A DNA stretch of 64,000 nucleotides, from positions 434,001 through 498,000 of the forward strand of contig NC_013216.1 of assembly GCF_000024205.1 (NCBI RefSeq), written 5' to 3'. The DNA is from Desulfofarcimen acetoxidans DSM 771 (GTDB lineage: Bacteria > Bacillota > Desulfotomaculia > Desulfotomaculales > Desulfofarciminaceae). Of the stretch, positions 27,975 to 57,206 are shown in pieces (position 1 is the first letter of the stretch; every line of letters starts with the position of its first letter). A program made the position numbers and the translations under genes. The notes beneath the pieces were generated by a model that searched no databases, was not told the origin of the DNA, and saw only the letters and a list, made by a program, of their open reading frames with translations.

Positions 27975-28048
27975 ATGAATTAGAGTAACAGGAAGTTATT
28001 CGAAAAGTCTTTTGTTAAGCTATTAATCAAAAAAAGAGATATAAATAT

Positions 28049-28102
28049 AACCATGAAGGTTTATCTTGCCGGAGCAGGGTGCGTTCATGGTTTTTTATTT
28101 TT
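28049..28102 (+). ncRNA. CCAYGAAGG-family hairpin with T-run (copy 1)
   Basis: AACCATGAA (28049-28057) pairs with TTCATGGTT (28084-28092), then T6ATTTTT. It shares its stem with six other hairpins in the window. The rest of the gap 27855-28392 shows no convincing gene; a ribosome-site-like AAAGGAGG on the minus strand near 28236 leads only to a very short frame. Confidence 0.6.
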
Positions 28103-28392: not shown

Positions 28393-29187
28393 TTATCCCA
28401 TAAATCGCTGCTTTTCTTCTAATTTTAGAGTAGTATCAGTCAAATATTTAGTGTAAGGGTGTTGTGGTTTCATAAAAACCTGTTCACTGTCGCCAATCTC
28501 CACCAAACGGCCTTGATGCATCACAGCAATCCTGTTGCTGACGGCCCTTGCTACTTCCAGGTCATGAGAAATAAATAGCATCCCGATGTTATGCTCCCGC
28601 TGGAGTTTTTTCATTAATTCCAGGATTTGAGCCTGTACCGAGATATCCAGCATTGAAGTTGGTTCGTCGGCTACAATAAATTTAGGTTTCAAGGCAAGCA
28701 CCCTGGCAATAGCGACACGCTGAGCTTGTCCCCCGCTGAGTTCGTGGGGATAACGTTCCAGGTGTTCCTTTAAAAGACCGACATCATTCAATAATTGGAG
28801 TATCTTTTCCTTTTCTTCTTCTTTTCTCTTTATAAGTTTATGGATTCTCAGCGGCTCTGCCATTGCTTCATAGATTTTTCGCCGGGGATACAAGGATTGC
28901 TGGGGATGCTGGAATATTATTTGCATTTCCTTTCTTAGCTTTTGCAGCTCTGCCGGTGATTTGACCGTCAACTCAGTATTTTCAAACCGGATACTGGCAG
29001 AGGTCGGCCTTATAAGCATGAGCAAAAGCCGGGCTACCGTAGACTTTCCACAACCGCTTTCTCCCACCAGTCCCAGGGTTTCCCCTTGTTTGATTGAAAA
29101 ACTTACTCCGTTTACAGCCTTAACTGTTCTTTTATAAAACAGTCCTCCTGTATACTCTTTAACCAGGTTTTTAACTTCTATGAGCAT
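28393..29187 (-). CDS. Oligopeptide/nickel-type ABC importer ATPase (DppF/NikE-like)
   Basis: 264 aa. Walker A GLVGESGCGKSTVARLLL, signature LSGGQAQRVAIARVLA, Walker B FIVADEPTSMLD and H-loop LFISHDLEVARA. The C-terminal HPYTKYLTDTTL matches the Opp/Dpp/Nik ATPase tail. Last gene of the operon; its ATG overlaps the end of the partner ATPase by 17 bases. With that partner it drives uptake through the two permeases. Confidence 0.92.
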   Translation of the reverse strand: MLIEVKNLVKEYTGGLFYKRTVKAVNGVSFSIKQGETLGLVGESGCGKSTVARLLLMLIRPTSASIRFENTELTVKSPAELQKLRKEMQIIFQHPQQSLYPRRKIYEAMAEPLRIHKLIKRKEEEKEKILQLLNDVGLLKEHLERYPHELSGGQAQRVAIARVLALKPKFIVADEPTSMLDISVQAQILELMKKLQREHNIGMLFISHDLEVARAVSNRIAVMHQGRLVEIGDSEQVFMKPQHPYTKYLTDTTLKLEEKQRFMG

Positions 29188-30178
29188 GAAAGCACCTCAC
29201 AAAATGGTTAGTAAGAATCTCTTCCATATCCGGATGATGAGCGGCACAGCGGGATGACGATGTTTTGCATCTGGGCTGGAATTTGCATCCCGGAGGGAGA
29301 TTAGTAAGGCTCGGACTAAAGCCGGGAATAGAGTTAAACCCTCTTCCCGGCAGAGAATTAAGCAGTGATTTTGTATAAGGATGCCGGGAATGATTTAGTA
29401 TTTGGGAAACTGGTCCGGTTTCCACTATTTCTCCGGCATACATAACGGCAACGCGATCTGCCAGCGCTGCCGCAACAGAAAAATCATGGGTAATAAGCAG
29501 CATTGATGAAGTGCTGGATGAAACCTGTTCTTTAAGCAAATCCACTACTCTTTTTCTCAGCACAGCATCAAGCCCTTTAGTAGGCTCATCAACCAGAATC
29601 AAGCCGGGATTGCATGCTATTCCCATGGATATCAGTACCCGCTGTCTCATTCCTCCGCTTAACTGATGAGGATAGCAGCAAATGCTTGTTGTGGGATCAG
29701 GCAAACGCAGCCGGCTAAACAGATTTATTGTTTCATGTTTTGCTGCTGATTTGTTGCATTTTTTATGCAACCTAATGATTTCCATAACCTGAATGCCAAT
29801 TTTCATCAGTGGATTTAGTGAAGTGGCAGGATTTTGCGGAATCATGCCAATTGCCTTTCCCCGGAGTCCTCTTAATTCTTCCTCATCGATCCCCAGAATT
29901 TCTTTTCCCAGGTAGCGGATACTTCCTTCCGTGCAGGCATTTTTAGGTAACAAACCAAGAATACTCAGCACCAGAACAGATTTGCCGCAACCTGTTTCTC
30001 CTACCAGGGCAACAACTTCATGATGATTAATATTGATTGAGACATTATCTAATGCTTTTAATACTGTATCTTTAATCTTGAAAAAGGCTTTCAGATCAAC
30101 AATGGAAAGGAGCGGTTCAGTCACCGCATGTTTATGCCGGAAACTGTCTGTATCTGAAAAAGCAAGAAAATCTGTCAT
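29171..30178 (-). CDS. Oligopeptide/nickel-type ABC importer ATPase (DppD/NikD-like)
   Basis: 335 aa. Walker A ALVGETGCGKSVLVLSIL, signature LSGGMRQRVLISMGIA, Walker B LILVDEPTKGLD. The C-terminal HPYTKSLLNSLPGR plus a Cys cluster (CKFQPRCKTSSSRC) is the oligopeptide-transporter C-terminal motif. In related ATPases such a Cys cluster can carry a Fe-S cluster. A longer-than-usual N-terminus (about 20 extra residues) precedes the ABC fold. ATG 30178 has AAGGAGT upstream. Confidence 0.92.
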   Translation of the reverse strand: MTDFLAFSDTDSFRHKHAVTEPLLSIVDLKAFFKIKDTVLKALDNVSININHHEVVALVGETGCGKSVLVLSILGLLPKNACTEGSIRYLGKEILGIDEEELRGLRGKAIGMIPQNPATSLNPLMKIGIQVMEIIRLHKKCNKSAAKHETINLFSRLRLPDPTTSICCYPHQLSGGMRQRVLISMGIACNPGLILVDEPTKGLDAVLRKRVVDLLKEQVSSSTSSMLLITHDFSVAAALADRVAVMYAGEIVETGPVSQILNHSRHPYTKSLLNSLPGRGFNSIPGFSPSLTNLPPGCKFQPRCKTSSSRCAAHHPDMEEILTNHFVRCFHAHRS

Positions 30179-30201
30179 TGCACTACTCCTTCCTGTTCAA
30201 T

Positions 30202-31065
30202 TTATTCTATCTGCCCTTCGCGCAGTCTGGGGTCAAGGACATCTCTCAAGCTGTCCCCCAGCATATTAAAAGCCAGAACGGTTATCATCACAGCCAGTCC
30301 GGGAAACAGGGTAATATGTGGAGCTGTCCGGATAAACTCGCGTCCTTCGTTAATCATTGCTCCCCATTCTGCGGTAGGGGGCTGGGCGCCCAGCCCAAGA
30401 AAGCTTAAACTTGCCCCGGCCAGCACCACATGAGCTATGTCCAGGGCAGCCATTACTATTACTGGAGTTACTATACTGGGTAAAATATATTTAAACATAA
30501 TACTGATTTGGCTGTTGCCCATGGCCCTTGCCGCTTCCACAAACTCTGACTGTTTAACTGATAGAACTTCGCCTCTGATAAGCCTTGTATATCCGGTCCA
30601 GTGCACCATCGTTAAGGCAATGATTATACTGCTCAGGCCCGGACCTATTGCTGCAATCAGAGCCAGGGAGAGGATAATCCCCGGGAAAGCAAGCATAACA
30701 TCGACAGTACGCATAATCAGGCTGTCCAGAATTCCTCCGAAATAACCTGATATCAGTCCGATTAATACTCCGCTAATGCCACTGATAGCTACAACTATGG
30801 CCGCTGTACTTAAAGACGTGTGTGTCCCTTCAATTACCCTGCTAAATATACATCTGCCCAGCGAATCTGTACCAAAAGGATATTTAAAAGAGGGTGGCTG
30901 TACCTTATCGGCGAGGCTTACCGCTGCCGGATCGTGTGGCATAATCCATTGCCCCGCCAGGGCTAACAGAAAGATAAACACAACTACTGTGGCACTGCTT
31001 GACAGCATTCGGTTGCTCTTTAATGTTTCTTTACAATTTGTAAATACTGTAACAAGCTCCTTCAT
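30202..31065 (-). CDS. Oligopeptide/nickel-type ABC importer permease (DppC/NikC-like)
   Basis: About 287 aa. N-terminal OppC-type TM helix (SSATVVVFIFLLALAGQWIM), then a periplasmic segment containing FGTDSLGRCIFSRVIEGT, typical of DppC/NikC. The BPD permease EAA loop is EFVEAARAMGNSQISIMFKY. I start at ATG 31065, directly after the previous stop and behind GGAAGGG. The in-frame ATG at 31083 lies inside the upstream gene and before this site. Confidence 0.9.
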   Translation of the reverse strand: MKELVTVFTNCKETLKSNRMLSSSATVVVFIFLLALAGQWIMPHDPAAVSLADKVQPPSFKYPFGTDSLGRCIFSRVIEGTHTSLSTAAIVVAISGISGVLIGLISGYFGGILDSLIMRTVDVMLAFPGIILSLALIAAIGPGLSSIIIALTMVHWTGYTRLIRGEVLSVKQSEFVEAARAMGNSQISIMFKYILPSIVTPVIVMAALDIAHVVLAGASLSFLGLGAQPPTAEWGAMINEGREFIRTAPHITLFPGLAVMITVLAFNMLGDSLRDVLDPRLREGQIE

Positions 31066-31066
31066 T

Positions 31067-32017
31067 TTAGACTTCCCTTCCATAGCGTATTCTGGGATCC
31101 ATCAGGACGTAAGCCAGGTCTACCAGCAAATTGACTACGGCGTAGGAAGTGGCGATTAAGACTATAATGCCCTGGACCATAGGGATATCTTTAGCTAATA
31201 TTGAATCAATCAGCAGTTTTCCTAACCCCGGCCAGGCAAACACCGTCTCCACGACTACCGTTCCTCCAAGCATATGTCCAAATTGAAGTCCAACTATGGT
31301 TATTACCGGGAGAAAAGCGTTCCTTAACGCATGCCGCCATACGACCACGCTTTCATGCAGACCTTTTGCTTTGGCTGTTAAAATATAATCCTGGTTCAAT
31401 ATCTCAAGCATGCATGAACGCATCATGCGCATAGTAACCGCCGACATACCTGCTGCTATTGTTACGCATGGCAGCACCACATCAGATATTTGCCTGAATC
31501 CTGCTACCGAAAACAGGTCTAATTGAAGGGAAAAAACAATGATTAATAACAGCGCCAGCCAAAAACTTGGTATAGACACAGCGAAAAGAGCACATAACCG
31601 GCTGAGGTGATCAAACACAGAATTCCTTCTTGCCGCAGAAAAAACTCCAACCGGAATTGCTATCAGCAGTGAAAGTGCAACACTCACCAGAGCCAGCAGG
31701 ACTGTTGCCGGAAATCTCAACCCAATGATCTGAGCCACGGAAGTTCTGTAAACATAGGATTCCCCAAGGTTCCCTCTGACAGCTTCTTTTATCCAGGAAA
31801 AATACTGCTTATCCAATGGTTCATCCAACTTGTACCGGTTCGTGATATTGGTAACTTCCGAATCTGTGGGCTCTTGTTCTATTCCTATAAAAGCATGCTT
31901 CAGGATAGTCACAGGAGTATCTCCCGGCGTCAGATGTAATATTCCGAATGTTAGCATGGAAGCTGCTGCAACGACTAAAATTGCAGCAGCTAAACGCTTA
32001 AAAAGAAATTGCCACAT
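31067..32017 (-). CDS. Oligopeptide/nickel-type ABC importer permease (DppB/NikB-like)
   Basis: 316 aa with six TM helices. Its start (MWQFLFKRLAAAILVVAAAS) and the GDTPVTILKHA region are typical of OppB/NikB. EAA loop: DYILTAKAKGLHESVVVWRH; TM end FAWPGLGKLLIDSILAKDIP. It lies 5 bases downstream of the binding-protein gene, so both are in one operon. It pairs with the DppC-like permease. Confidence 0.92.
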   Translation of the reverse strand: MWQFLFKRLAAAILVVAAASMLTFGILHLTPGDTPVTILKHAFIGIEQEPTDSEVTNITNRYKLDEPLDKQYFSWIKEAVRGNLGESYVYRTSVAQIIGLRFPATVLLALVSVALSLLIAIPVGVFSAARRNSVFDHLSRLCALFAVSIPSFWLALLLIIVFSLQLDLFSVAGFRQISDVVLPCVTIAAGMSAVTMRMMRSCMLEILNQDYILTAKAKGLHESVVVWRHALRNAFLPVITIVGLQFGHMLGGTVVVETVFAWPGLGKLLIDSILAKDIPMVQGIIVLIATSYAVVNLLVDLAYVLMDPRIRYGREV

Positions 32018-32022
32018 ACCTT

Positions 32023-33582
32023 CTACTCCTTAATCCCCACTTCTGTTGTAAGCATGTAATCATGAGCTGTAGGATTAAATACAAAGTTCTCGATTTTGCT
32101 GTTCATGACAGCGGCCACACCGTAATAGGCAATTGGTAGTACAGGCACTTCATCTTCCAGAATTTGCTGTACCTGTTTGGAAAGCTCATACTTTTTCTGC
32201 TGGTCATCTACAGCAACACATTCATCGATCAATTGGTCAACTTTTGCATTATTGTAGCCAATTAATTTGTTGTTTTCAGAATAATACAGTACTTGTAAAT
32301 GATAGCTGGGAGTAGGAATCATAGCGGTCGCAAAAGCACTCATTTTCATATCCCATTTGCCTGTTGAAGCAACTTGGCTCATGGCGGAATTTTCCATAAT
32401 CTCAATCTTCAAATCAATCCCTGCTTGTTTGAATTGATCCTGTAAAGCTTGAGCCATTGGAGGAAGGCCCGGTCTCTGCGGATAAGTCATAAGGGTTATT
32501 TTCAGCGGTTGGCCGTTTTTATCTATGATTCCGTCTCCATCAGTATCTTTCCAACCCGCTTCTTCCAATAGTAATTTTGCCTTGCCGGGAGAATAGGGAT
32601 AACCTTTTAAATTTTCGTTTGTCCACGCCATTCCCGGCATGAATGGCCCCTTGGCAGGAGTTCCGCATCCGAAAAGCACATGTTTAGTAATACTTTCCCT
32701 GTCAATAGCATAGCTCAAAGCTTTTCTGACTCTTACATCGTTGAACGGTTCTTTTTTCAGGTTCATTTCCACAATATATGTCCTGGCGGTAGGATTGAGT
32801 TCGACTTTAAGTCCTTTCTCCTTGCCCAATCTCTCCAGTTCATTATAAGGTGGATCACAGGTAAAATCTATTTCCCCTTTTTCCAAGGCCAGAGCACGGG
32901 TATTGGGATCCGGCAAAGGACGTATTTCCAATTTTTCCAGCTTGGCGGGAGTTCCCCAGTAGTCCTTATACTTTGCCATCTCCATGTCGCCTGTTGATGC
33001 TTCAAATTGTTCTAACATAAAAGGTCCCGTACCGATAGGTTTGATAAGTTTGCCGGCTTTATCAACCGAGCTTGGCGCGATAACAGATGCGCCCATATAA
33101 TGCAGCGAAGCAGGGAAATCGCCGGTTGGAGCTGTTGTTGTAATTTTTAATGTATGATCGTTCTCTACTTCTATTGATTTTATTTTTGTAAATGTTTGAA
33201 CCTGCGGGTTAACAGCAATAGCTCTCATGAGCGACCATTTCACTGCTTCTCCATCCATCGGTGTGCCGTCATGGAATTTGACCCCTTGGCGAAGAACAAT
33301 ACTCCATGTGTTTGCATCTATTCTTTTCCATTCAGTTGCAAGACCGGGTTTTAACTCAAAATTCTCCTTTACTCCTACCAATGTTTCTGTGATCATGGCT
33401 TTTTCAGTCGTCAAAGTGCCACTAGTTGACGGATCAATACTGTCGATTTTCCACATTTCTCCTACTACCAATTTTTTATTACTGTCCTTATTTTCTTTTT
33501 TTACACCACAACCTGATGTGAGAAGGACGCTGATGGTCATCAGTATACAAACTACGATAAACATGATTTTCCTTTTAATCAT
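32023..33582 (-). CDS. ABC importer substrate-binding lipoprotein (SBP_bac_5; NikA/DppA-like)
   Basis: 519 aa. Lipoprotein signal (MFIVVCILMTISVLLTSGC, Cys about 25). SBP_bac_5 features: GLATEWKRIDANTWSIVLRQ, GVKFHDGTPMDGEAVKWSL and ALSYAIDRESITKHVLFG. The family captures peptides, nickel, or metal-chelate complexes outside the membrane. I cannot fix the ligand by eye. A nickel or metallophore role is suggested by neighbours (a P1B metal ATPase and a methyltransferase) but not shown. Start ATG 33582 lies behind GGAGAAAA. A CCAYGAAGG-type hairpin with T-run lies upstream. Confidence 0.9.
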   Translation of the reverse strand: MIKRKIMFIVVCILMTISVLLTSGCGVKKENKDSNKKLVVGEMWKIDSIDPSTSGTLTTEKAMITETLVGVKENFELKPGLATEWKRIDANTWSIVLRQGVKFHDGTPMDGEAVKWSLMRAIAVNPQVQTFTKIKSIEVENDHTLKITTTAPTGDFPASLHYMGASVIAPSSVDKAGKLIKPIGTGPFMLEQFEASTGDMEMAKYKDYWGTPAKLEKLEIRPLPDPNTRALALEKGEIDFTCDPPYNELERLGKEKGLKVELNPTARTYIVEMNLKKEPFNDVRVRKALSYAIDRESITKHVLFGCGTPAKGPFMPGMAWTNENLKGYPYSPGKAKLLLEEAGWKDTDGDGIIDKNGQPLKITLMTYPQRPGLPPMAQALQDQFKQAGIDLKIEIMENSAMSQVASTGKWDMKMSAFATAMIPTPSYHLQVLYYSENNKLIGYNNAKVDQLIDECVAVDDQQKKYELSKQVQQILEDEVPVLPIAYYGVAAVMNSKIENFVFNPTAHDYMLTTEVGIKE

Positions 33583-33815: not shown

Positions 33816-33872
33816 ATTAAAAAATAAAACCACAAAAGTATGTCCGTTTCTTTGGACATAACCTTCATGGTT
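33816..33872 (-). ncRNA. CCAYGAAGG-family hairpin with T-run (copy 2)
   Basis: On the minus strand AACCATGAAGG (33872-33862) pairs with CTTTTGTGGTT (33838-33828, several G-U pairs), with an inner ATGTCC/GGACAT stem, then a T-rich run. It lies after the methyltransferase stop and about 250 bases before the binding-protein start. It could end the first transcript or attenuate the second. The remaining 230 bases of leader hold no gene I recognise. Confidence 0.6.
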
Positions 33873-33917: not shown

Positions 33918-34610
33918 TTATTTATCAGTCAGCACGAAGCGAAATATGTATGCCTGCTCATAGGTGGCTTTCATTCTATCAGCAATGCGTAAAAAGCCGT
34001 CTTTTTTGCGGGAAACATCGATAAAACCTTGAGGATGGCGACGTTGAATTTCCACGTTGAAACCCTCTGATGCGAAGGTTTCGGCAATAAAGTCCAGTGT
34101 ATGGGCATTGGACTCTACCAGACTGTTTTCATTAATCCATATGGTAAAATGCTGCAGACTGGGATTGTCATTTAAATCAGTGTAAGTGGCATAATACACT
34201 CCACCGGGTTTTAACATCTGCTTAATCTTCCAGGCGTGGCTTTTTAGGTCTTTAATTAAATAAATTACAGCCTGACTTACAGCAAGGTTAAATTTGTTGG
34301 TGTACTGCTCCGGAGTATTTGTTGCAACATAAGTAAGCGGCAAATCACCTTTACGAGAATTAGCGACAGCTATTGACTGCTGTGCCAGATCAATACCCAT
34401 ACCCTCTTTAAAGGGTTTGACTTGATATAAATGGCGCAAAAATCCTCCCTGATTACAGCCAAAGTCAAGCACTGTCATATCAGACAGATCCTGCTCCTGA
34501 ATTAAATTGATGACTTCTTTCCAGCCTCTTAGATGTCTTTCTTCCATTTGCTGCTCGCCTTCTTCGAGATTTTGCCACCATATGTCATAAAGCCTGTCTT
34601 GCTGCATCAT
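33918..34610 (-). CDS. Class I SAM-dependent methyltransferase
   Basis: 230 aa. SAM-binding motif I is VLDFGCNQGGFLRHLY (about residues 47-62), followed by GIDLAQQSIAVANSRKGD. Motif post-I/II and MLKPGGVYYATYTDLNDNPS are typical of methyltransferase_11/25. The N-terminal stretch YDIWWQNLEEGEQQMEERHL is unusual. The substrate is unknown. It leads the ABC importer genes on the same strand and is divergent from MarR, so it may modify the imported or exported ligand. Its 5' leader holds hairpin 34681-34730. Confidence 0.85.
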   Translation of the reverse strand: MMQQDRLYDIWWQNLEEGEQQMEERHLRGWKEVINLIQEQDLSDMTVLDFGCNQGGFLRHLYQVKPFKEGMGIDLAQQSIAVANSRKGDLPLTYVATNTPEQYTNKFNLAVSQAVIYLIKDLKSHAWKIKQMLKPGGVYYATYTDLNDNPSLQHFTIWINENSLVESNAHTLDFIAETFASEGFNVEIQRRHPQGFIDVSRKKDGFLRIADRMKATYEQAYIFRFVLTDK

Positions 34611-34680: not shown

Positions 34681-34730
34681 AAACAAAAAACCACGAAGGC
34701 AAGACAATTTTGTCTCATTATCCTTCGTGG
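34681..34730 (-). ncRNA. CCAYGAAGG-family hairpin with T-run in the methyltransferase leader (copy 3)
   Basis: Minus strand: CCACGAAGG (34730-34722) pairs perfectly with CCTTCGTGG (34699-34691), with an inner AGACAA/TTGTCT stem, then six T, G, and three T. It lies about 70 bases before the methyltransferase start and after the divergent promoter region. A terminator in this position must be a 5'-UTR attenuator. Confidence 0.75.
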
Positions 34731-34884
34731 ATATGTTCTCATTATTTGAATTTGGGTAGAGTTACGAATGAATATCTGATAACAATCTGCTGATCAGCTG
34801 TTATTTATTAAAATTATAATTTATTTTGTAGAACGGTGCAATATAGTATTGTGAAAATTTCAAAATTTATAATGAAATGACTGT

Positions 34885-34946
34885 TATTTATTATTATTTG
34901 ATTGTCAAATAATAATAAATAGGTTATCATAATAATTGAATTTCAA
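34885..34946. promoter_or_regulatory. Palindromic operator region, likely MarR binding sites
   Basis: A perfect 17-bp inverted repeat (34885-34901 and 34905-34921, core TTTGATTGTCAAA) is followed by a second palindrome TTGAATTTCAA (near 34937-34947). Both lie in the 382-bp divergent gap between the methyltransferase and MarR genes, next to AT-rich promoter-like sequence. MarR proteins usually bind such palindromes in their own promoter. Confidence 0.7.
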
Positions 34947-34992: not shown

Positions 34993-35412
34993 ATGAAAGC
35001 TATTGAAGAACTAACCGATGAGCTTTTACTTTTTTTTAACGGTTTTGCCTCATGGGAAAGCTCGGTAATTCGTTCCAGTGACTTGACTGTTTCTGAGGCT
35101 CATGCCATTGAAGTGCTGGGGCAGTATGGAAAGATGAATATGAAGAACTTGGCCCAAAAATTAGGCGTAACCACTGGGACCACAACTGTTACAGTAGATA
35201 GATTGGAAAAAAAGGATTATGCCAAACGTGAAACAACTAGGGAAGACAGGCGGGTCAATCTGATCAGTTTGACGGAGAAGGGAATGAGAGCCTTTGCAGA
35301 ACATCACAATTTCCACCTTAATTTAACAGAGCAAATGGTATCCAACCTGTCTGAAGAAGAAATTGAGCAGTTTCACAAAATTCTTAAAAAAATAAATGCC
35401 GAGACTTTTTAA
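34993..35412 (+). CDS. MarR-family transcription regulator
   Basis: 139 aa. Winged helix with GQYGKMNMKNLAQKLGVTTG, then TTTVTVDRLEKKDYAKRETT and the wing motif EDRRVNLISLTEKG (conserved DxR). MarR proteins are usually repressors released by a ligand or metal. It lies 17 bases before the P1B ATPase gene in one operon and is divergent from the methyltransferase/importer genes, so one operator region could control both. AAAGGAGG precedes ATG 34993. Confidence 0.93.
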   Translation: MKAIEELTDELLLFFNGFASWESSVIRSSDLTVSEAHAIEVLGQYGKMNMKNLAQKLGVTTGTTTVTVDRLEKKDYAKRETTREDRRVNLISLTEKGMRAFAEHHNFHLNLTEQMVSNLSEEEIEQFHKILKKINAETF

Positions 35413-39208: not shown

Positions 39209-39613
39209 TTGAGCAAACTTGATACAAATAGCCACTCGGTCTTCTTACTCACATATCATCTGATTTTGGTAGTAAAATATCGCAGAAAAGTTATAAACGA
39301 CACAATAGCAAACCGTATCAAAGAAATTGGTGAGTATATTGCACCAAAATATAATATTAGTTTTCTTGAATACAACCATGACAAAGATCACACACGCATA
39401 TTGTTCAAGGCTCACCCTAATACGGAAATTTCTAAGTACATCAATGCATTCAAAAGTGCATCATCCAGACTTATTAAAAAGGAGTTTCCGGAAGTTAGAA
39501 AGCAGCTGTGGAAAGAATATTTTTGGTCGCAAAGTTTTTGTCTTCTAACTACAGGTGGTGCACCCATTGAAGTAATTAAGAAGTACATTGAAACCCAGGG
39601 TGAAAAGAGGTGA
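39209..39613 (+). CDS. tnpA: IS200/IS605 TnpA (Y1 HUH transposase) with altered HUH motif
   Basis: 134 aa, TTG start. Family hallmarks are present: LTYHLILVVKYRRKVI, SSRLIKKEFPEVRKQLWKEY, FWSQSFCLLTTGGAPIEVIK and the catalytic Tyr in KKYIETQG. The metal-binding HxH is damaged: DHTRILF stands where family members have DHxHILF, so the second His is Arg (CGC from CAC). The enzyme is probably unable to bind its metal. It overlaps tnpB by 4 bases. Confidence 0.9.
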   Translation: MSKLDTNSHSVFLLTYHLILVVKYRRKVINDTIANRIKEIGEYIAPKYNISFLEYNHDKDHTRILFKAHPNTEISKYINAFKSASSRLIKKEFPEVRKQLWKEYFWSQSFCLLTTGGAPIEVIKKYIETQGEKR

Positions 39614-40710
39614 ATCATTTGCAAATTGTCTACCGGTTTGAAATGCGTCCGACCAAAGAGCAACAGAAAAAAATGTTTCACACACTAAAACTTTGCCGGA
39701 AACTCTATAACTGGTCTTTATCTGAGCGTCAGCGTGTGTATAAAGAAACCGGCCAAGGGTTGACATATAATAAACAGCAGAATATGCTGCCGGGCTATAC
39801 AAAAGAACATCTGGAATACAAGCAAGTTCACAGTCAGGTAATGCAGGATACTTTGCGCCGGGTAGACTTTGCCTATCAGCGGTTTTTTGCCAAAGAAGCC
39901 GGATACCCCCGGTTCAAAAACCGTGACCATTACACATCATTTACCTATCCCCAGGTGGATGCTGTAAAGAAAACTTTCTCTAAGCCGGGTAAAATCTATC
40001 TCTCTAAGATTGGTTTTGTAAAAATGACAACTCACCGGGAATTTGATGCCAGTCAAATATCCAGGGTTAACATAAAGTATCACGGTGGTAAGTGGTACGC
40101 TAATTTGACTGCCGAAGTGGAAGTACTCGAAAATCTTATCGACAGTACCAAATCCATTGGAATAGACGTGGGCCTTGAACATTTTGCTGTATTGTCTGAT
40201 AGTACAGAAATAGGAACCCCAAAATACTATCGTAAATCAGAAAGGAAGTTAGCCAAACAACAGCGAAGACTTTCTCGCAAAAAGAAAGGTTCTAACAACC
40301 GAGGGAAAGCCAAAACTAAAGTGGCTAAACTTCATGCTAAGATAACTAATCAACGAAAAGACTTTCTACACAAGGCCAGTCTAGACGTGGTTCAGAGCCA
40401 TGATATTGTCTTCATGGAAGATCTAAAGAGCAAGAACATGGTCAAAAACCACTACCTAGCTAAAAGCATACATGATGCTTCATGGGGTACATTCAGAAAC
40501 TTTGTTGAGTATAAATGTCACAGATATGGTAAAATATTTCTTCCTGTCCCTCCTCATGGCACTTCCCAGACATGTCTTTGTGGTGCCAATGTGCCAAAGG
40601 ATTTGAGTGTCAGAGTGCACCGGTGTCCTGCTTGTGGAATGGTTATGCCCAGGGATTTGGTGTCAGCCATATTGATAGAACGTCGTGGCTTAGAAATGCT
40701 AGCGGCTTAG
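39610..40710 (+). CDS. tnpB: TnpB RNA-guided nuclease (OrfB_IS605)
   Basis: 366 aa. N-terminal helix-rich part (LCRKLYNWSLSERQRVYKET). RuvC-I Asp in SIGIDVGLEHFAVLS, RuvC-II Glu in IVFMEDLKSKNM, zinc ribbon CLCGANV...CPACG and RuvC-III Asp in MPRDLVSAIL. All three RuvC acids appear present. TnpB uses an RNA from the element's right end to cut DNA and so retain the element. Likely active even if TnpA is not. Confidence 0.92.
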   Translation: MNHLQIVYRFEMRPTKEQQKKMFHTLKLCRKLYNWSLSERQRVYKETGQGLTYNKQQNMLPGYTKEHLEYKQVHSQVMQDTLRRVDFAYQRFFAKEAGYPRFKNRDHYTSFTYPQVDAVKKTFSKPGKIYLSKIGFVKMTTHREFDASQISRVNIKYHGGKWYANLTAEVEVLENLIDSTKSIGIDVGLEHFAVLSDSTEIGTPKYYRKSERKLAKQQRRLSRKKKGSNNRGKAKTKVAKLHAKITNQRKDFLHKASLDVVQSHDIVFMEDLKSKNMVKNHYLAKSIHDASWGTFRNFVEYKCHRYGKIFLPVPPHGTSQTCLCGANVPKDLSVRVHRCPACGMVMPRDLVSAILIERRGLEMLAA

Positions 40711-46550: not shown

Positions 46551-48571
46551 CCCAGGTTTCGCACTAAGGGATCAGTAAACTGGGAACCACTGCCAAACCT
46601 TATTTTCTAAAATTATCCTTAAACCATTTCTCAATATGATAAGAAAAATTGATTGCTGAATTAATAACCTCTATTAATTCAAGTGGATGTGGTAAGTTAA
46701 ACAGATTAACCAATACATCAATAGTATTAGGAATATTCGTCCCATTCCAATGGTGTATACCAATAGGCTGCAACCTTTGTTCTGAGATAGTTAGGTCGCC
46801 AAGTTCTCTCTGTAATTTTTGGGGAGACATCTTTTTGCCATTTTTAGCTAACAGCCAGGCTGCTAAATTAAGCACAAGCATAGCCAATACTTTTAAAAAG
46901 CAATAGGCATCTACTCTTTCAGGATTGCGAAGGAATACTTGTTGTAAATCAAGAGAACCCTTCAAAAACCTAAAACTGATTTCGATGTCGTTCCTACCAC
47001 GATAGCGGGTAAGCAGTTCATTAGCATCAACCTTCTCTTTGTCATGGTTGGTTAAAAGCACAAAGATACCGTCGGTTTTCTCAAGCTCTGGAATTATAGC
47101 TTCATCTTTTGACCAGGACATAACAATAGCATTATGTTGATTTAGTTTAATTGTTACATTAAACAGCCTACGCATTTCAGGCTGCCCTTTAAAAATATTA
47201 TCTACTGCTTTTTCACAGGCTTCCTTCGTAATTAAGTTACGTTTGTTGAGCTTACCATTTAGTTCTACTAATGCATCTTCTGTGCTGGTTATACGCTTTT
47301 GACGACGCTCTTGTTCCTTAGGTTTTTTGTTTAAATCACAATAAATAACCGCCCTTATAGTATGTGTCGCAAATATTCGCTTACTTTTTTTGAGTTGCTT
47401 TTTGTTCTTACTACCCTCTGAGGGAGGCTCAAGTTTTACCTTAAACGTATATTTTGTCTCTAACGCCTCGTAGTGTCTGGGTAGATTTCTTTCTATTTCT
47501 TTCTTAGAGCGATAGTCAATAGCAGCAAAATCATCTTTTTTAGCCTCATTTAATTGCTCTAAGACCCAATTCTTTGATAGCTCATCCTTGAGTGGACCTA
47601 TAAAAAAGGCCTTTTGGTTGCTATTAGTAAGCATCAAATGCATATTATCTTGGGTTAGGATACCACGATCAATAATCATCTCAAATTCTTGGTCATCGGT
47701 AATCTCTTTAACCTTCTCGAATGAACGCTCAAAAGTCGTACCGCCTTGAACATTACCGGAATCAATTGATGATGTTACCGGCAAAGATGCACCAGAGGCT
47801 ATCGTAAGATTAAGGATTAATTGTTTTAAACCCGGTAGACCACCATACCCGTATTGAACTTTATCGTTATCCTCCATAACACCAGAGACTGGAATGGAGG
47901 ATGTGTCATTGTAAAAAGTGTTAAGTGGAACTCCAAATTTCTTGGATGCTGATAAAACAATATCCTGCAATACATTAGCCATATATTTTGCATTTGAGTT
48001 TATAGCGTCAAGGGCTCTACCCATTTTGTCATCATTAAATTTTTCGGACGGTATACCGAGTATTGTTTCGACTTGCCAGTTTTCACAAGCTTCTTCAAAT
48101 TTATATAAACGGGTGAGATCTTTATTTCTGCCCAGCATGTCGCCAACCATTATTTCACATGCCAAACCAGTACTTACCCGACATTTAGAACCGTTGGCTC
48201 TGTCTTCACGTAGATGCTCATAAGTAACATATTCTTCGCCTATAAAGTTGTCAATTATTTTACCGATGCCCAGGCTTCTTGCTAAAAAGACACCGATAAG
48301 TACTGCACCTGAGGGATCTGCCTTCGGAACTTCTACTTTTAATTCGGGCATTATCTTCATCAATATTTCGGGGGGTAATTTAGCTAGTTGTTCTAAAATA
48401 GGTTGTAAGTCCATGACGATCCCTCACTAATATTTATTCTTATTAGTGATAATTCGACACAAAAAACAGAGATCCTTCCAGTTTATGGATCAGTTTTTTT
48501 TATGGTTGTAATTAATATTATTTATGCTCCACTATTTTACAGGTTTAGATTTTTATCTTGCGGAAGGTGGG
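46551..48571 (-). mobile_element. IS1634-family insertion sequence, 2,021 bp, with target duplication
   Basis: Ends CCCAGGTTTCGCA (46551) and CCCACCTTCCGCA (complement of 48571 inward) are inverted repeats matching at 10 of 13 positions. TTAAAA directly flanks both sides (46545-46550, 48572-48577) as a 6-bp target duplication. One transposase gene is inside, in opposite orientation to the toxin gene. Confidence 0.9.
46600..48414 (-). CDS. IS1634-family DDE transposase
   Basis: 604 aa, a normal length for the family. Catalytic residues: Asp in FYNDTSSIPV, Asp in MIIDRGILTQDN, Glu in YRGRNDIEISFRFLKG (the YREK-type motif of the IS4 superfamily). Frame intact, so the element may be able to move. 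It starts at ATG 48414; no strong ribosome site is seen. Confidence 0.92.
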   Translation of the reverse strand: MDLQPILEQLAKLPPEILMKIMPELKVEVPKADPSGAVLIGVFLARSLGIGKIIDNFIGEEYVTYEHLREDRANGSKCRVSTGLACEIMVGDMLGRNKDLTRLYKFEEACENWQVETILGIPSEKFNDDKMGRALDAINSNAKYMANVLQDIVLSASKKFGVPLNTFYNDTSSIPVSGVMEDNDKVQYGYGGLPGLKQLILNLTIASGASLPVTSSIDSGNVQGGTTFERSFEKVKEITDDQEFEMIIDRGILTQDNMHLMLTNSNQKAFFIGPLKDELSKNWVLEQLNEAKKDDFAAIDYRSKKEIERNLPRHYEALETKYTFKVKLEPPSEGSKNKKQLKKSKRIFATHTIRAVIYCDLNKKPKEQERRQKRITSTEDALVELNGKLNKRNLITKEACEKAVDNIFKGQPEMRRLFNVTIKLNQHNAIVMSWSKDEAIIPELEKTDGIFVLLTNHDKEKVDANELLTRYRGRNDIEISFRFLKGSLDLQQVFLRNPERVDAYCFLKVLAMLVLNLAAWLLAKNGKKMSPQKLQRELGDLTISEQRLQPIGIHHWNGTNIPNTIDVLVNLFNLPHPLELIEVINSAINFSYHIEKWFKDNFRK

Positions 48572-49756: not shown

Positions 49757-50540
49757 TGAAAAGAACTTGTGATTAATGTTAACTTAACCGTTATATGGGT
49801 GAACAAGCATAAATACAGGCTACTATAACGGACAAATAAACCGGGCTGACTTAATGCATGGGCTTATATGAAAGGTATCAGTTTGATAACGAGGTTTAAT
49901 TGAATAACGAACATAAACGCATAAAAACAGAGTGCCTTATATAATAATCTGGTCCATGCGATAATAAACTACAAAGGTTTTCAGAGTTTTTCAAGTACTC
50001 TGAAACACTATAGTGGGGGTATCGCAATGGATGAAATAACTCAGGTTAAAATCCGGTTCCATATAGGAAATGGTATGTTAAAGTGATTGTAGATGAATAG
50101 CTTATTATAGATCTTAGAGTTTCCGCTAATAAAGAAATAGAAAATTGTGCCGAGTAAAGCTTTTATGAACACAGCTTAAAGTATTTTACCGTTGGTTCAC
50201 CAATGCTGGCTAAATCATTGATAATCCGGTAACAAATGTTAAAACAGTGACCGTTGTCAAGCAGGCTCTAAAGTGGTTCGCGCGGAAAATTATTTTGCTG
50301 GTCATAGCTAAACTCATAACTGCGCTGTCAGTGATTGATTGGTCAGCATATCTTTCTCATAGGAAAGTTCTTTTATCGAAAATGGGGCAGAAAAATATTG
50401 TTAAAAATAGGGAAGGAATTTTGTAAATTATAGAGAATATAGTCTTAAGAGAAGAGAACGCAGAACGCGACAAGAAGTCGTGATACCAGATATGAACGAG
50501 AAACTCAAAGCAAATTGTGTTTATGCAAGCTTAATAAGTA
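49757..50540. other. Gene-free decayed stretch
   Basis: About 780 bases without a credible frame. Short stubs such as MDEITQVKIRFHIG (near 50028) look like the start of a lost gene. Confidence 0.45.
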
Positions 50541-50547
50541 TATTTTT

Positions 50548-50600
50548 ACCACGAAGGTATTGACCTGTAAAAAAGGTTAACTTTCGTGGTTTTTATTTTC
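50548..50600 (+). ncRNA. CCAYGAAGG-family hairpin with T-run (copy 4)
   Basis: ACCACGAAGG (50548-50557) pairs with CTTTCGTGGT (50581-50590); an inner ACCT/AGGT stem; then TTTTATTTT. The surrounding about 105 bases (from about 50508) are repeated at 53234-53340. Confidence 0.65.
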
Positions 50601-53340: not shown

Positions 53341-53637
53341 GTTGAGCAAAGTAATTGTATAGACGTCTGTACGAAGGATAATTGCTTTTTAAAGATACTG
53401 GATGCCGGGGAAATTATTCCGATGAGGCAGCTATATTACCGTAATGAGGTAGAAATTATCGCTTTGTTCGGATAAAGATTTTATAAAAACTAGGTTAAAT
53501 GTATAAAAAAATATCTTATAAAGAAGGAATTTCTTGAATTGTATAGAATATAAAAATAGTGAAAAAACTAATAGCTGAAGCTATTTTGTCTTGCAAAACA
53601 GAAGAAGTAGTTTAATACAGATATATATTGGATAATA

Positions 53638-53690
53638 AACCACGAAGGTTTGTTTCTGTATGAAACAAGTTTTTGCGGTTTTTGTTTTTT
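53638..53690 (+). ncRNA. CCAYGAAGG-family hairpin with T-run (copy 6)
   Basis: A 20-bp stem with one mismatch and several G-U pairs (from AAACCACGAAGG; the other arm ends TTTTTGCGGTTT), then TTTGTTTTTT. Confidence 0.6.
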
Positions 53691-53739: not shown

Positions 53740-53790
53740 AACCATGAAGGTTATCATCCATTATAGGGAAACCTTCATGGTTTTTTAATT
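53740..53790 (+). ncRNA. CCAYGAAGG-family hairpin with T-run (copy 7)
   Basis: Perfect 13-bp stem: AACCATGAAGGTT (53740-53752) and AACCTTCATGGTT (53770-53782), then six T and AATTTT. It lies about 22 bases before the readable DUF4198-like remnant. Confidence 0.75.
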
Positions 53791-54038: not shown

Positions 54039-54851
54039 GTGAAAAACAAAGTTATTGGACGTGGTAAGTTTTATGTTATTGGAAAAGGACCGGCCGGGCC
54101 TCAGATGGCCACTTTGCAGGCTTTGAACATGATTGAACAGATGGATGCTATTGTAGCTCCAGATAATGATGTGAAACTCTTTGCAGAGTATGTCGGAGAA
54201 AAGCCGGTTCTATTCGATCCGTGGGAAGGATTTTGGAATTACGAAGGTAAACAAATGTTGGACTTAACTGAAGATGAAATGGAGAAATTTCGTATAAAAC
54301 GATTCAATTTGAGAGATGAGAGAGTGAACACAATTAAGGAATTTCTCATTCAGGGGAAAGATGTTGCACTGCTTGATGCCGGCAATCCCTGTTTTTTTGG
54401 TCCCAGCCACTGGTATGTGGAACAGTTCGATCAGCAGGATATTGTTATTATTCCCGGTATGGGATGCGAAGCAGCGGCTTTGGCAGCTCTGGGGAAAAGT
54501 ATCATTCCCTCATATGACACCCGCTTTGTCATGCAAACAGCCCCTCTTTATTTGGAAGGTTGGGAGCAGATATTAAAAGATCTGAATCAGTATCCGGTTA
54601 GTATAGTTGCATACATGACTTTGAGCAATCCGAAAAAATTGTTTGCAGGCCTTGAAAAATTATATCCTACTGATATGCCATGCGCCATTGTCTATTGGGC
54701 AGGATATCCGGATAAGCAGCGTGTCATAAGAGGAACTGTTGCTGATATGGGGCAAAAACTTTCAGAAGATGAGGAAAACCACATGGGGCTTCTGTTCATC
54801 GGGCGTTTTCTTAATGGAAAACCTTACGAAGCAGCTATGAAACAACAATAG
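54039..54851 (+). CDS. Tetrapyrrole methylase-family SAM methyltransferase
   Basis: 270 aa, GTG start behind AAAGAGGT. TP_methylase features: FYVIGKGPAGPQMATLQALN (GxGPG-like P-loop, here GKGPAG), ALLDAGNPCFFGPSHWYVEQ, IIPGMGCEAAALAALGKSII, AIVYWAGYPDKQRVIRGTVA. Most related in style to CbiF/CobM-type corrin methylases. No cobalamin or sirohaem genes are nearby, so the substrate is unknown; the family also includes peptide methylases (borosin type) and diphthine synthase. With the DUF4198 remnant it may act in Ni/Co-related metabolism. Confidence 0.85.
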   Translation: MKNKVIGRGKFYVIGKGPAGPQMATLQALNMIEQMDAIVAPDNDVKLFAEYVGEKPVLFDPWEGFWNYEGKQMLDLTEDEMEKFRIKRFNLRDERVNTIKEFLIQGKDVALLDAGNPCFFGPSHWYVEQFDQQDIVIIPGMGCEAAALAALGKSIIPSYDTRFVMQTAPLYLEGWEQILKDLNQYPVSIVAYMTLSNPKKLFAGLEKLYPTDMPCAIVYWAGYPDKQRVIRGTVADMGQKLSEDEENHMGLLFIGRFLNGKPYEAAMKQQ

Positions 54852-55270: not shown

Positions 55271-55357
55271 AAAGGGAGGTATATAACTGTTACTAGAAAA
55301 CTAAATTAATATTAAAAAACCTGCTATAATGTGATATAATTTTGGCAGGTGATTAGG

Positions 55358-55792
55358 ATGGAAAACTATATAAGTATTGGCAAAGCAGCTAAATATTTAG
55401 GGGTTAGTATTAATACTTTACGTGTTTGGGAAAAGAAAAAGATATTAGTTCCAGAAAGAACTCCTACTGGCCATCGCCGCTATAAAATGTCCCAAGTAGG
55501 ATCCTTTGAGGGCAAAAAATATAGCCGAATTCAAAATACCGTATTTCTCTACGCCAGGGTATCTACGCAAAAACAGGCTGATGCCGGGAATCTTGATCGA
55601 CAAATAGGAAGGCTTACTGAATATGCATCAAATAACAAATATGCTATTCAGGCTGTTTTTCGTGATATTGCCAGTGGTTTAAATGGAAAACGTGGCGGCA
55701 GAGTAGCAAAAAAGCTGTCAAAGGTCATTGAAAGCGAGGTGACTACCAGTGAAGACAACGGCGATGGGAATAATCCTGGAACTGACAGCTAA
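55358..55792 (+). pseudogene. tnpA: IS607 TnpA (serine recombinase) with the second half of its catalytic domain deleted, copy 2
   Basis: About 144 aa. MerR-like HTH (SIGKAAKYLGVSINTLRVWE; PERTPTGHRRYKMSQV) and first part of the recombinase with the active Ser (FLYARVSTQKQADAGNLDRQ). After DIASGLNGKRGGR it jumps in frame to the tail KKLSKVIESEV. The DRLARFG segment (conserved Arg residues) kept by copy 1 is missing. It overlaps tnpB by 44 bases. Confidence 0.85.
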
Positions 55793-57206
55793 ACAGAAAG
55801 AATACATTGATAACCTCATGGATAATTACTGTGCCGCAGTTCGTTGGGCATTTAAAAGACTGCTGGATGGATGGAAAGTACAAGACATTCGTATAACTGT
55901 ACAAGGAAAGTTCAGACTTAACTCCCGGCAGGCTAACGATGCAGTATATGATGCCCAGACCACAATCAAAAGCCAATATAAATTAGTGCAGATGCACTAT
56001 GAAAACGCCAAAGCAAAGGTTGAATTTACAGAAAAGCGTATCGCCAAGGCTAAATCGCTGGCTAAGATTGCCAAACTGCAAAAACGGTTAGAAAAGGAAC
56101 AGCGTAAACTGGCCTTCTGGCAAAATCACCTGGATAACAATACTTTTCCGCCTGTTGTATTCGGAGGAAAGAAGCTCTTTCAAGAACGCTGCAAAGGCAA
56201 TATTACCAGGGAAGAGTGGCAGGAAGTCAGAAGTAACCGTTATCTATCACGGGGAGATAAAACCAAAGGCGGCAACCTAAATACCCGCATATACGAAAGC
56301 CAAGACCAAATCTATCTTGATATAGCCGCCGACCCGGTACAGAAAGGGGAATCCGTTCGGTATAACCGCATAACGGTGCCGATCTATTTAGCTCAAAAGC
56401 CATCGAAAAAGACCGGCAAGATTAACGGTATCAACTACCGGCAAATGGTTTTGGATTATCTTAAAACAGGCAGTGCCTATCAGGTAGAAATCCTCCGCAG
56501 AGACGGTAAATATTACGTCCATGTGAGTATTGAAGAAGAAGTTCCGATGCCATATAACCATAAGGGTGCGTTTGGTGTAGACACCAACCCGGACGGATTA
56601 GGCGTAACCCAGGTAGACTGTCTGGGGCAATACCGGGGCAGTGAATGGCTTGGTCAAGGCGAATGGACTTATGCCAGAACAAAACGGAGAAATAACCAGA
56701 CCTGTGAAATGGCTAAGAAAGTGATCCTCCAGGCTAAAGAAAAAGGTTACGCCCTGGCGGTAGAGGACTTAAAGTTTAAAAATGACAAGTCCGTAACGGC
56801 CAAGTTTAACCGAATGAGTCACAGTTTTGTCTGGTCGAAGTTTCTAAAAGCAGTTGACCGGAGTGCTGCCCGTGAGGGAGTGCCGATATTAAAGGTAAAA
56901 CCGGCTTTTACTTCGGTCATAGGCATCCTAAAATACCAGCACATGTACGGCATAGCTGTTCACGAAGCGGCAGGCTATGTCATAGCCCGGCGTGGCTTGG
57001 GCTTTGATCATGAGAAGATACCCAAGATGTTGCTTGATAAACTGGTTAAAAAGAAACCTGAATTTAAACAAATGGCAAATTGGAAACAATGGTCAGCAGT
57101 TAAAAAGTCTGTGCTGGCCAAGATTAAAAAAATCACGAAAAGGAAGAAGGTGAATAGCCTGGTTTCATGGCAGATTCACCGGAAAAATGTGTTAGGTATA
57201 GGTTAA
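55749..57206 (+). CDS. tnpB: IS607-associated TnpB-like protein without zinc ribbon
   Basis: 485 aa, GTG start. RuvC-I Asp in FGVDTNPDGLGVTQVD, RuvC-II Glu in ALAVEDLKFKNDKSV. The usual Cys4 zinc ribbon is absent: VKPAFTSVIGILKYQHMYGI takes its place. At the RuvC-III position the sequence is AVHEAAGYVIARRGLGF, with His-Glu instead of the common RD. This marks a divergent TnpB-like subgroup whose cutting activity is uncertain. Otherwise intact; copy 1 is a broken version. Confidence 0.85.
   Translation: MKTTAMGIILELTAKQKEYIDNLMDNYCAAVRWAFKRLLDGWKVQDIRITVQGKFRLNSRQANDAVYDAQTTIKSQYKLVQMHYENAKAKVEFTEKRIAKAKSLAKIAKLQKRLEKEQRKLAFWQNHLDNNTFPPVVFGGKKLFQERCKGNITREEWQEVRSNRYLSRGDKTKGGNLNTRIYESQDQIYLDIAADPVQKGESVRYNRITVPIYLAQKPSKKTGKINGINYRQMVLDYLKTGSAYQVEILRRDGKYYVHVSIEEEVPMPYNHKGAFGVDTNPDGLGVTQVDCLGQYRGSEWLGQGEWTYARTKRRNNQTCEMAKKVILQAKEKGYALAVEDLKFKNDKSVTAKFNRMSHSFVWSKFLKAVDRSAAREGVPILKVKPAFTSVIGILKYQHMYGIAVHEAAGYVIARRGLGFDHEKIPKMLLDKLVKKKPEFKQMANWKQWSAVKKSVLAKIKKITKRKKVNSLVSWQIHRKNVLGIG

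Follow-up and report, generated by a model that had tools for sequence, protein, structure and literature searches.

The hairpin at 34691-34730 on the minus strand of the window (the whole 64-kb stretch of DNA that was analysed) is predicted to stop transcription within the 5' leader of a methyltransferase/nickel-transporter operon. It represents a family of two-hairpin leaders that is widespread in anaerobic bacteria and apparently undescribed. The leader is probably a transcription-attenuating RNA: stabilisation of a small alternative hairpin (P2) by a factor would give read-through of the methyltransferase-nik operon, with P2 and an upstream hairpin (P1) as the twin sites of that factor.

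A predicted terminator in the leader of a methyltransferase/nickel-transporter operon

Read on the minus strand, 34730-34691 is CCACGAAGG-ATAATGAGACAAAATTGTCTTG-CCTTCGTGG (5' arm CCACGAAGG, 34730-34722; 3' arm CCTTCGTGG, 34699-34691; 15 related leaders were aligned), and the sequence continues into the U-tract TTTTTTGTTTG (34690-34680), i.e., a G+C-containing hairpin lies directly 5' of a U-tract, as in intrinsic terminators. The perfect 9-bp outer stem, the inner stem and the T-rich run described in the earlier note were confirmed by the minus-strand sequence and by folding against shuffles: a 70-nt slice with the hairpin gave -23.0 kcal/mol compared to a shuffle mean of -10.3 (z -4.8), and none of 200 shuffles equalled it. 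A simple terminator scan, which accepts loops of 3-8 nt only, missed the hairpin.

The T-run is present on the minus strand only, and the hairpin is therefore oriented toward the methyltransferase, the ATG of which is at 34610, 70-80 nt 3' of the hairpin and in agreement with the distance of about 70 bases given before. No minus-strand gene lies directly upstream (34993-35412 is a MarR gene on the plus strand), so that the hairpin, as previously claimed, ends no upstream minus-strand gene. The operon starts with a class I SAM-dependent methyltransferase (33918-34610, minus strand), the first gene past the leader, followed on the same strand by a NikA-like solute-binding protein (SBP_bac_5; 32023-33582), for which the best NCBIfam models are nickel solute-binding proteins with scores below their cut-offs, and by the remaining genes of a Nik/Opp-type ABC transporter (28393-32017; permeases at 31067-32017 and 30202-31083, ATPases at 29171-30178 and 28393-29187). 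On the divergent side, the MarR gene and a heavy-metal P-type ATPase are transcribed in the opposite direction.

A promoter is predicted at 34813-34841 on the minus strand (-35 TTGCAC, 34841-34836; -10 TATAAT, 34818-34813; 17-nt spacer). It is supported by conservation, as most of this leader's nearest relatives in Sporomusaceae retain it, and the hairpin lies between this promoter and the first gene of the operon, with no gene ending upstream. We infer a transcription start at about 34806-34811, upstream of 34681 and thus the opposite of the downstream start that the earlier note had named as speaking against its reading. A motif overlapping the -35 box, TTTTCACAATACTATATTGCA (34837-34857, minus strand), is conserved among the closest Sporomusa counterparts of this leader; with its CAATA-nnn-TATTG dyad it is a possible operator. 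A 28-codon open reading frame (34742-34656) spans the terminator and was considered as a leader peptide, which was rejected as a convincing ribosome site is missing. Farther upstream, a perfect 17-bp inverted repeat, TATTTATTATTATTTGA-TTG-TCAAATAATAATAAATA (34885-34921), overlaps the predicted plus-strand MarR promoter and is a probable MarR operator; judged by eye, the MarR protein shows an HH..H pattern like that of AdcR, and proteins closely related to it are found near metal genes in Sporomusaceae (G489, G491).

The methyltransferase looks imported, because it is 80-84% identical to Sporomusa proteins, while 100 genomes related to the source genome contain nothing close to it (no match better than E ~2e-7); a plasmid search gave distant methyltransferases only. 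A recently imported, Sporomusa-only leader in decay was dropped as a full account because the source genome holds 17 copies of the family. Transposase-like ORFs were noticed by eye near the metal-uptake island, at 39209-40710, 46600-48414 and 55349-57206 of the window.

A family of leaders in Sporomusaceae and other anaerobic bacteria

Of 150 relatives searched, 64 (from 43 of the 92 genera) contain the terminator pattern CCAYGAAGG-N12-40-TTYRYGG-N-TT, which was built on the hairpin 5' arm CCAYGAAGG; a reversed-pattern control gave about 7 hits. Among 380 genomes, a stricter pattern was concentrated in Sporomusaceae and a few neighbours. A covariance model built from five leaders identified copies in 9 of 12 Sporomusa-family genomes (E 1e-15 to 1e-22), and over 380 genomes of the class it gave no match outside this family. 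Leader, promoter and terminator are shared with Sporomusa while the stem sequences vary; in Sporomusa malonica (L033), for example, the same promoter (TTTTCACAATAnTATATTGCA...17 nt...TATAAT) and a 16-nt block, AACATATCCACGAAGG, are conserved, and the inner stem differs by paired changes. A search for ATCCACGAAGG in four genomes revealed more such leaders, before the methyltransferase and also before an iron/B12-type binding protein. In Sporomusa sp. KB1 the leader-methyltransferase region occurs twice on one contig, in identical copies (L030, L031).

There are two leader subtypes, the first mostly ahead of methyltransferase/nik/fec operons, and the other before exbB-exbD-tonB, TonB receptor, ECF, methyltransferase or cobN operons, or before a nik-type operon also carrying larC. 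In subtype-B leaders (L165, L168, L171, L173, L175) the terminator loop GGUUAAGAAUGACC is conserved across species and resembles the P1 loop AAGAA. Two leaders (L240 and L233) have a further AUGAA hairpin (UUAGCCAUGAAGGU...) directly 3' of the family terminator, which suggests triple-hairpin variants.

No Rfam family (including NiCo, cobalamin and T-box) was matched by the leaders at gathering or relaxed thresholds; the sole Rfam hit in 16 family loci was a cobalamin riboswitch near a family leader (L292, 2731-2918), a separate element. In papers on nickel RNA regulation, Sporomusa transcriptome architecture and Negativicutes regulation the element is not described, which is weak evidence since subscription journals were barely covered. 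Viral contigs scanned with a 15-mer gave 96 hits, none of them a family member by the arm test.

Genes behind the leaders

A genuine NikA is found behind one leader (TIGR02294, 734 bits with a cut-off of 393), Opp2B nickel permeases behind leaders score over their cut-off, and CbiM was recognised by eye in six copies, two of which were confirmed by Pfam. Other first genes encode FecCD, FmdE, CobN/Mg-chelatase-like proteins, DUF3842, DUF4198 and a ZnuA-like protein; TonB, ExbB (identified by sequence) and an ECF S component are also present behind leaders, and LarC is located farther down one operon under a leader. A P-loop ATPase was called CooC-like solely on the basis of its sequence (CbiA/ParA in Pfam, no match in NCBIfam). 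Some downstream genes (e.g., CN_hydrolase, DUF1835) are not metal genes; together, the downstream genes point to nickel and/or cobalt.

DUF3842 is a candidate partner of the leaders and no more than that. Leaders occurred in 61 of 110 genomes with DUF3842 and in 3 of 40 without it (Fisher p 5e-8; 150 genomes, 20 unlisted negatives being obtained by subtraction); the same association would arise from common descent and a common use of nickel. DUF3842 genes frequently sit beside leaders or between them; cases flanked by leaders or just upstream of them were observed at G001 C17 33332-34039, G016 C44 127693-128251 and G000 C1 1171214-1171802.

The P1 and P2 hairpins

The 5' arm of the terminator can refold into P2, a small hairpin with the consensus NNCC[AYGAA]GGNN (e.g., AUAUCC[ACGAA]GGGUAU in Sporomusa, and AGAACC[ACGAA]GGUUUU or ACC[ACGAA]GGU elsewhere). 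In the 34691-34730 copy it is UAUCC[ACGAA]GGAUA (34719-34733, minus strand), inside the terminator 5' arm, and on paper the two structures are mutually exclusive. By itself, P2 has little stability (about -1 to -7 kcal/mol) compared with the terminator (-14 to -38 kcal/mol). It folds and covaries in the relatives: over 96 copies, outer pairs 3 and 4 are formed in 93% and 78%, respectively, vs 71% and 50% when the 3' flanks are permuted among copies, and 0 of 2000 permutations reach either value. A conserved, mutually exclusive structure of the kind expected of an attenuator is thus present in the family and kept in this copy, including its AYGAA loop.

Upstream, most members carry P1, the loop of which is of the type (N)NGRA and the stem of which differs between nearly all copies (e.g., UUGAGUC[AAGAA]GACUCAA, GGUGAUC[UGAA]GAUCACC, AAAUAGCA[AUGAA]UGCUGUUU and GGCGAC[CGGA]GUCGCC). 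With a stem of at least 5 bp it was found in 59 of the 96 copies (dinucleotide-shuffle mean 5.3, maximum 10; eight other loop classes gave 0-13), and 34 copies had a stem of 7 bp or more (1.1 in shuffles; 0-4 for the other classes). These statistics, as well as those for P2, overstate the evidence somewhat, because related copies do not count as independent observations, and because the NGRA class was broadened after copies had been inspected; with the narrower NGAA class, which was fixed before most copies were fetched, 26 of 71 copies had P1 at p below 0.05. The contrast with the control loop classes stays large despite these caveats. A P1 of at least 5 bp is missing in 37 of the 96 pattern copies, so P1 is common and not obligatory, and either it is optional or some pattern matches are plain terminators.

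The 34691-34730 copy is among those without P1. No hairpin with an (N)NGRA loop was found upstream of it (p 0.78), and at the P1 position (34781-34802, minus strand) there is AACAGCUG[AUCAG]CAG-A-UUGUU, the loop of which is not of this class. By promoter, terminator, P2 and gene context, the copy classifies as a family member, albeit an untypical one.

These data bear on the alternative that survives best, although we consider it unlikely, namely that the hairpin is an ordinary unregulated intrinsic terminator, which closes a short RNA or keeps antisense transcripts from the MarR/P-type ATPase side out of the operon, the family likeness reflecting a mobile or recombining terminator sequence. 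It is favoured by the degenerate P1 of this copy, by a copy (28051-28090) with no gene after it, and by some hits outside a metal context. It leaves unexplained, however, why the covarying P2 always has AYGAA at its tip, why a second hairpin with a matching loop lies upstream, and why the position before nickel/cobalt genes recurs. Against a mobile repeat, a DNA search of the genome with the whole leader matched only the leader itself and the MarR palindrome; with no second genomic copy, the leader is not a simple repeat.

Proposed mechanism

In the attenuation model preferred here, RNA polymerase would by default stop at the U-run ahead of the methyltransferase-nik operon. P2 is formed from the terminator's own 5' arm; as long as P2 is held folded, this arm could not pair with the 3' arm, and read-through would follow. 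P1 and P2 look like twin binding sites because the upstream P1 carries a matching (N)NGRA loop in most members; the factor reading both would act in trans and would most likely be a dimeric or sequentially binding RNA-binding protein. As the genes concerned are nickel/cobalt uptake and insertion genes, the signal may be one of these metals, and read-through would be expected when metal is scarce. The 34691-34730 copy, which retains P2 and the terminator but no longer has the consensus loop of P1, may give a weak response, work through P2 only or merely dampen expression, and its regulation is the least certain part of this account. The proposal of the earlier note that the hairpin switches expression by premature termination is thus upheld as far as termination within a leader is concerned (a promoter is predicted upstream, and the family stands before nickel/cobalt uptake genes); that it switches, as well as termination in vivo, is what we infer from the model.

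The earlier note had also suggested an antiterminator pairing within 34731-34860. Such a pairing exists: 34774-34764 (UAUUCAUUCGU) can pair with the terminator 5' arm (10 bp, one bulge), and this duplex is part of the minimum free energy structure when the 3' arm is left out of the leader. That the copy was rewired in the source genome, with this duplex as a conventional antiterminator, is nevertheless improbable, and it was rejected because the duplex does not exceed chance expectation (p 0.09) and the other copies show nothing corresponding to it; what is conserved as an alternative structure is the local P2 (34733-34719).

Beyond this operon, we lean slightly toward a wider reading, in which undescribed, widespread, protein- or ligand-dependent dual-hairpin antitermination RNAs with GRA loops coordinate a nickel/cobalt uptake and insertion regulon across Desulfotomaculia-type Bacillota and Sporomusaceae, via an RNA-binding metal regulator for which DUF3842 is one candidate partner. 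Acetogens and sulfate reducers need nickel for CO dehydrogenase and hydrogenase, and bacterial nickel uptake is usually ascribed to DNA-binding regulators such as NikR. If the reading is true, many of these organisms would instead set their nickel supply by RNA-level antitermination, a regulon would be defined that comprises transporters, TonB systems, LarC, CobN-like chelatases and unknowns such as DUF3842 and EamA, and the search for an RNA-binding metal sensor would become directly testable.

Comparison with known systems

The NiCo (czcD) riboswitch is likewise a 5' leader tied to nickel/cobalt homeostasis genes and to transcription termination. It has a four-way-junction aptamer and switches efflux genes on with metal, whereas the family leaders have neither an Rfam match nor a junction. 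A protein-free metal or metabolite riboswitch, in which P1, linker and P2 together would be an aptamer for Ni2+/Co2+ or a metal complex, would suit the metal-related regulon and the strongly conserved loops; we regard it as very unlikely, however, because the conserved part consists of two hairpins of 4-8 bp with short loops about 46-99 nt apart, the linker is not conserved between subtypes, there is no multi-helix core, and neither NiCo nor another family of Rfam was matched.

In LicT/SacY-type RAT antiterminators the antiterminator hairpin also overlaps the terminator 5' arm, and it is stabilised by a protein. The RAT is a single hairpin of about 30 nt with internal loops in sugar operons, whereas the family has very small hairpins, a fixed AYGAA loop and, in addition, P1 as a separate hairpin. 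NikR, which shares the control of nickel uptake genes, acts on promoter DNA, whereas the family element is transcribed and conserved as RNA hairpins.

The leaders targeted by ANTAR proteins (EutV, NasR, AmiR) are closest in logic: they have two small hairpins with look-alike loops, the second of which overlaps the terminator 5' arm and would prevent termination when stabilised, and there are several leaders per genome in one regulon. EutV-type targets have hexaloops with A1 and G4 (PMC3369931), and the linkers between their hairpins are 5-12 nt, a longer linker abolishing EutV action (PMC3369931, PMC8934654). In the family, by comparison, the loops are (N)NGRA tetra/pentaloops and AYGAA (4-5 nt), the hairpins are about 35-90 nt apart (46-99 nt between P1 and P2 loops), and the genes are those of nickel/cobalt uptake; neither loop sequence nor spacing fits, and the family was not filed with the ANTAR leaders. 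That it is a divergent target read by resident response-regulator ANTAR proteins is the least probable of the alternatives, hardly to be expected despite the shared EutV/NasR/AmiR architecture (PMC3369931) and the presence of these proteins in 4 of 4 genomes tested, given the mismatches just described, their occurrence in 91 of 100 relatives irrespective of whether leaders are present, and the location of their genes next to glnA, groESL or an amino-acid-permease-like gene in the genomes checked. Across genomes, ANTAR presence is only weakly associated with leaders (p 0.013), much more weakly than DUF3842.

Other family members in the window

At least five more terminators of the same type, absent from the earlier note, were identified in the window. 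One lies between the methyltransferase and the nikA-like gene (33830-33870, minus strand; P2 UAACC[AUGAA]GGUUA). Four others are on the plus strand. The unit at 50466-50589 has a canonical P1, CGCGAC[AAGAA]GUCGUG (50466-50482), P2 UACC[ACGAA]GGUA, and a terminator at 50549-50589. Upstream of a tetrapyrrole-methylase gene, the unit at 53570-53678 comprises P1 AAUAGC[UGAA]GCUAUU (53570-53585) and P2 plus terminator (53640-53678), and a second, tandem family terminator with P2 UAACC[AUGAA]GGUUA follows at 53742-53780, before the methylase at 54039. Since the units at 50466-50589 and 53570-53678 both carry the upstream P1 with an (N)NGRA loop, they are better test objects than 34691-34730. The last unit (27983-28090), complete with P1 GAGUAAC[AGGAA]GUUAUUC (27983-28001), P2 and terminator (28051-28090), lies downstream of an mreB-like gene with no plus-strand gene after it; it may be a relic, or else act as a free-standing RNA to which the regulator binds.
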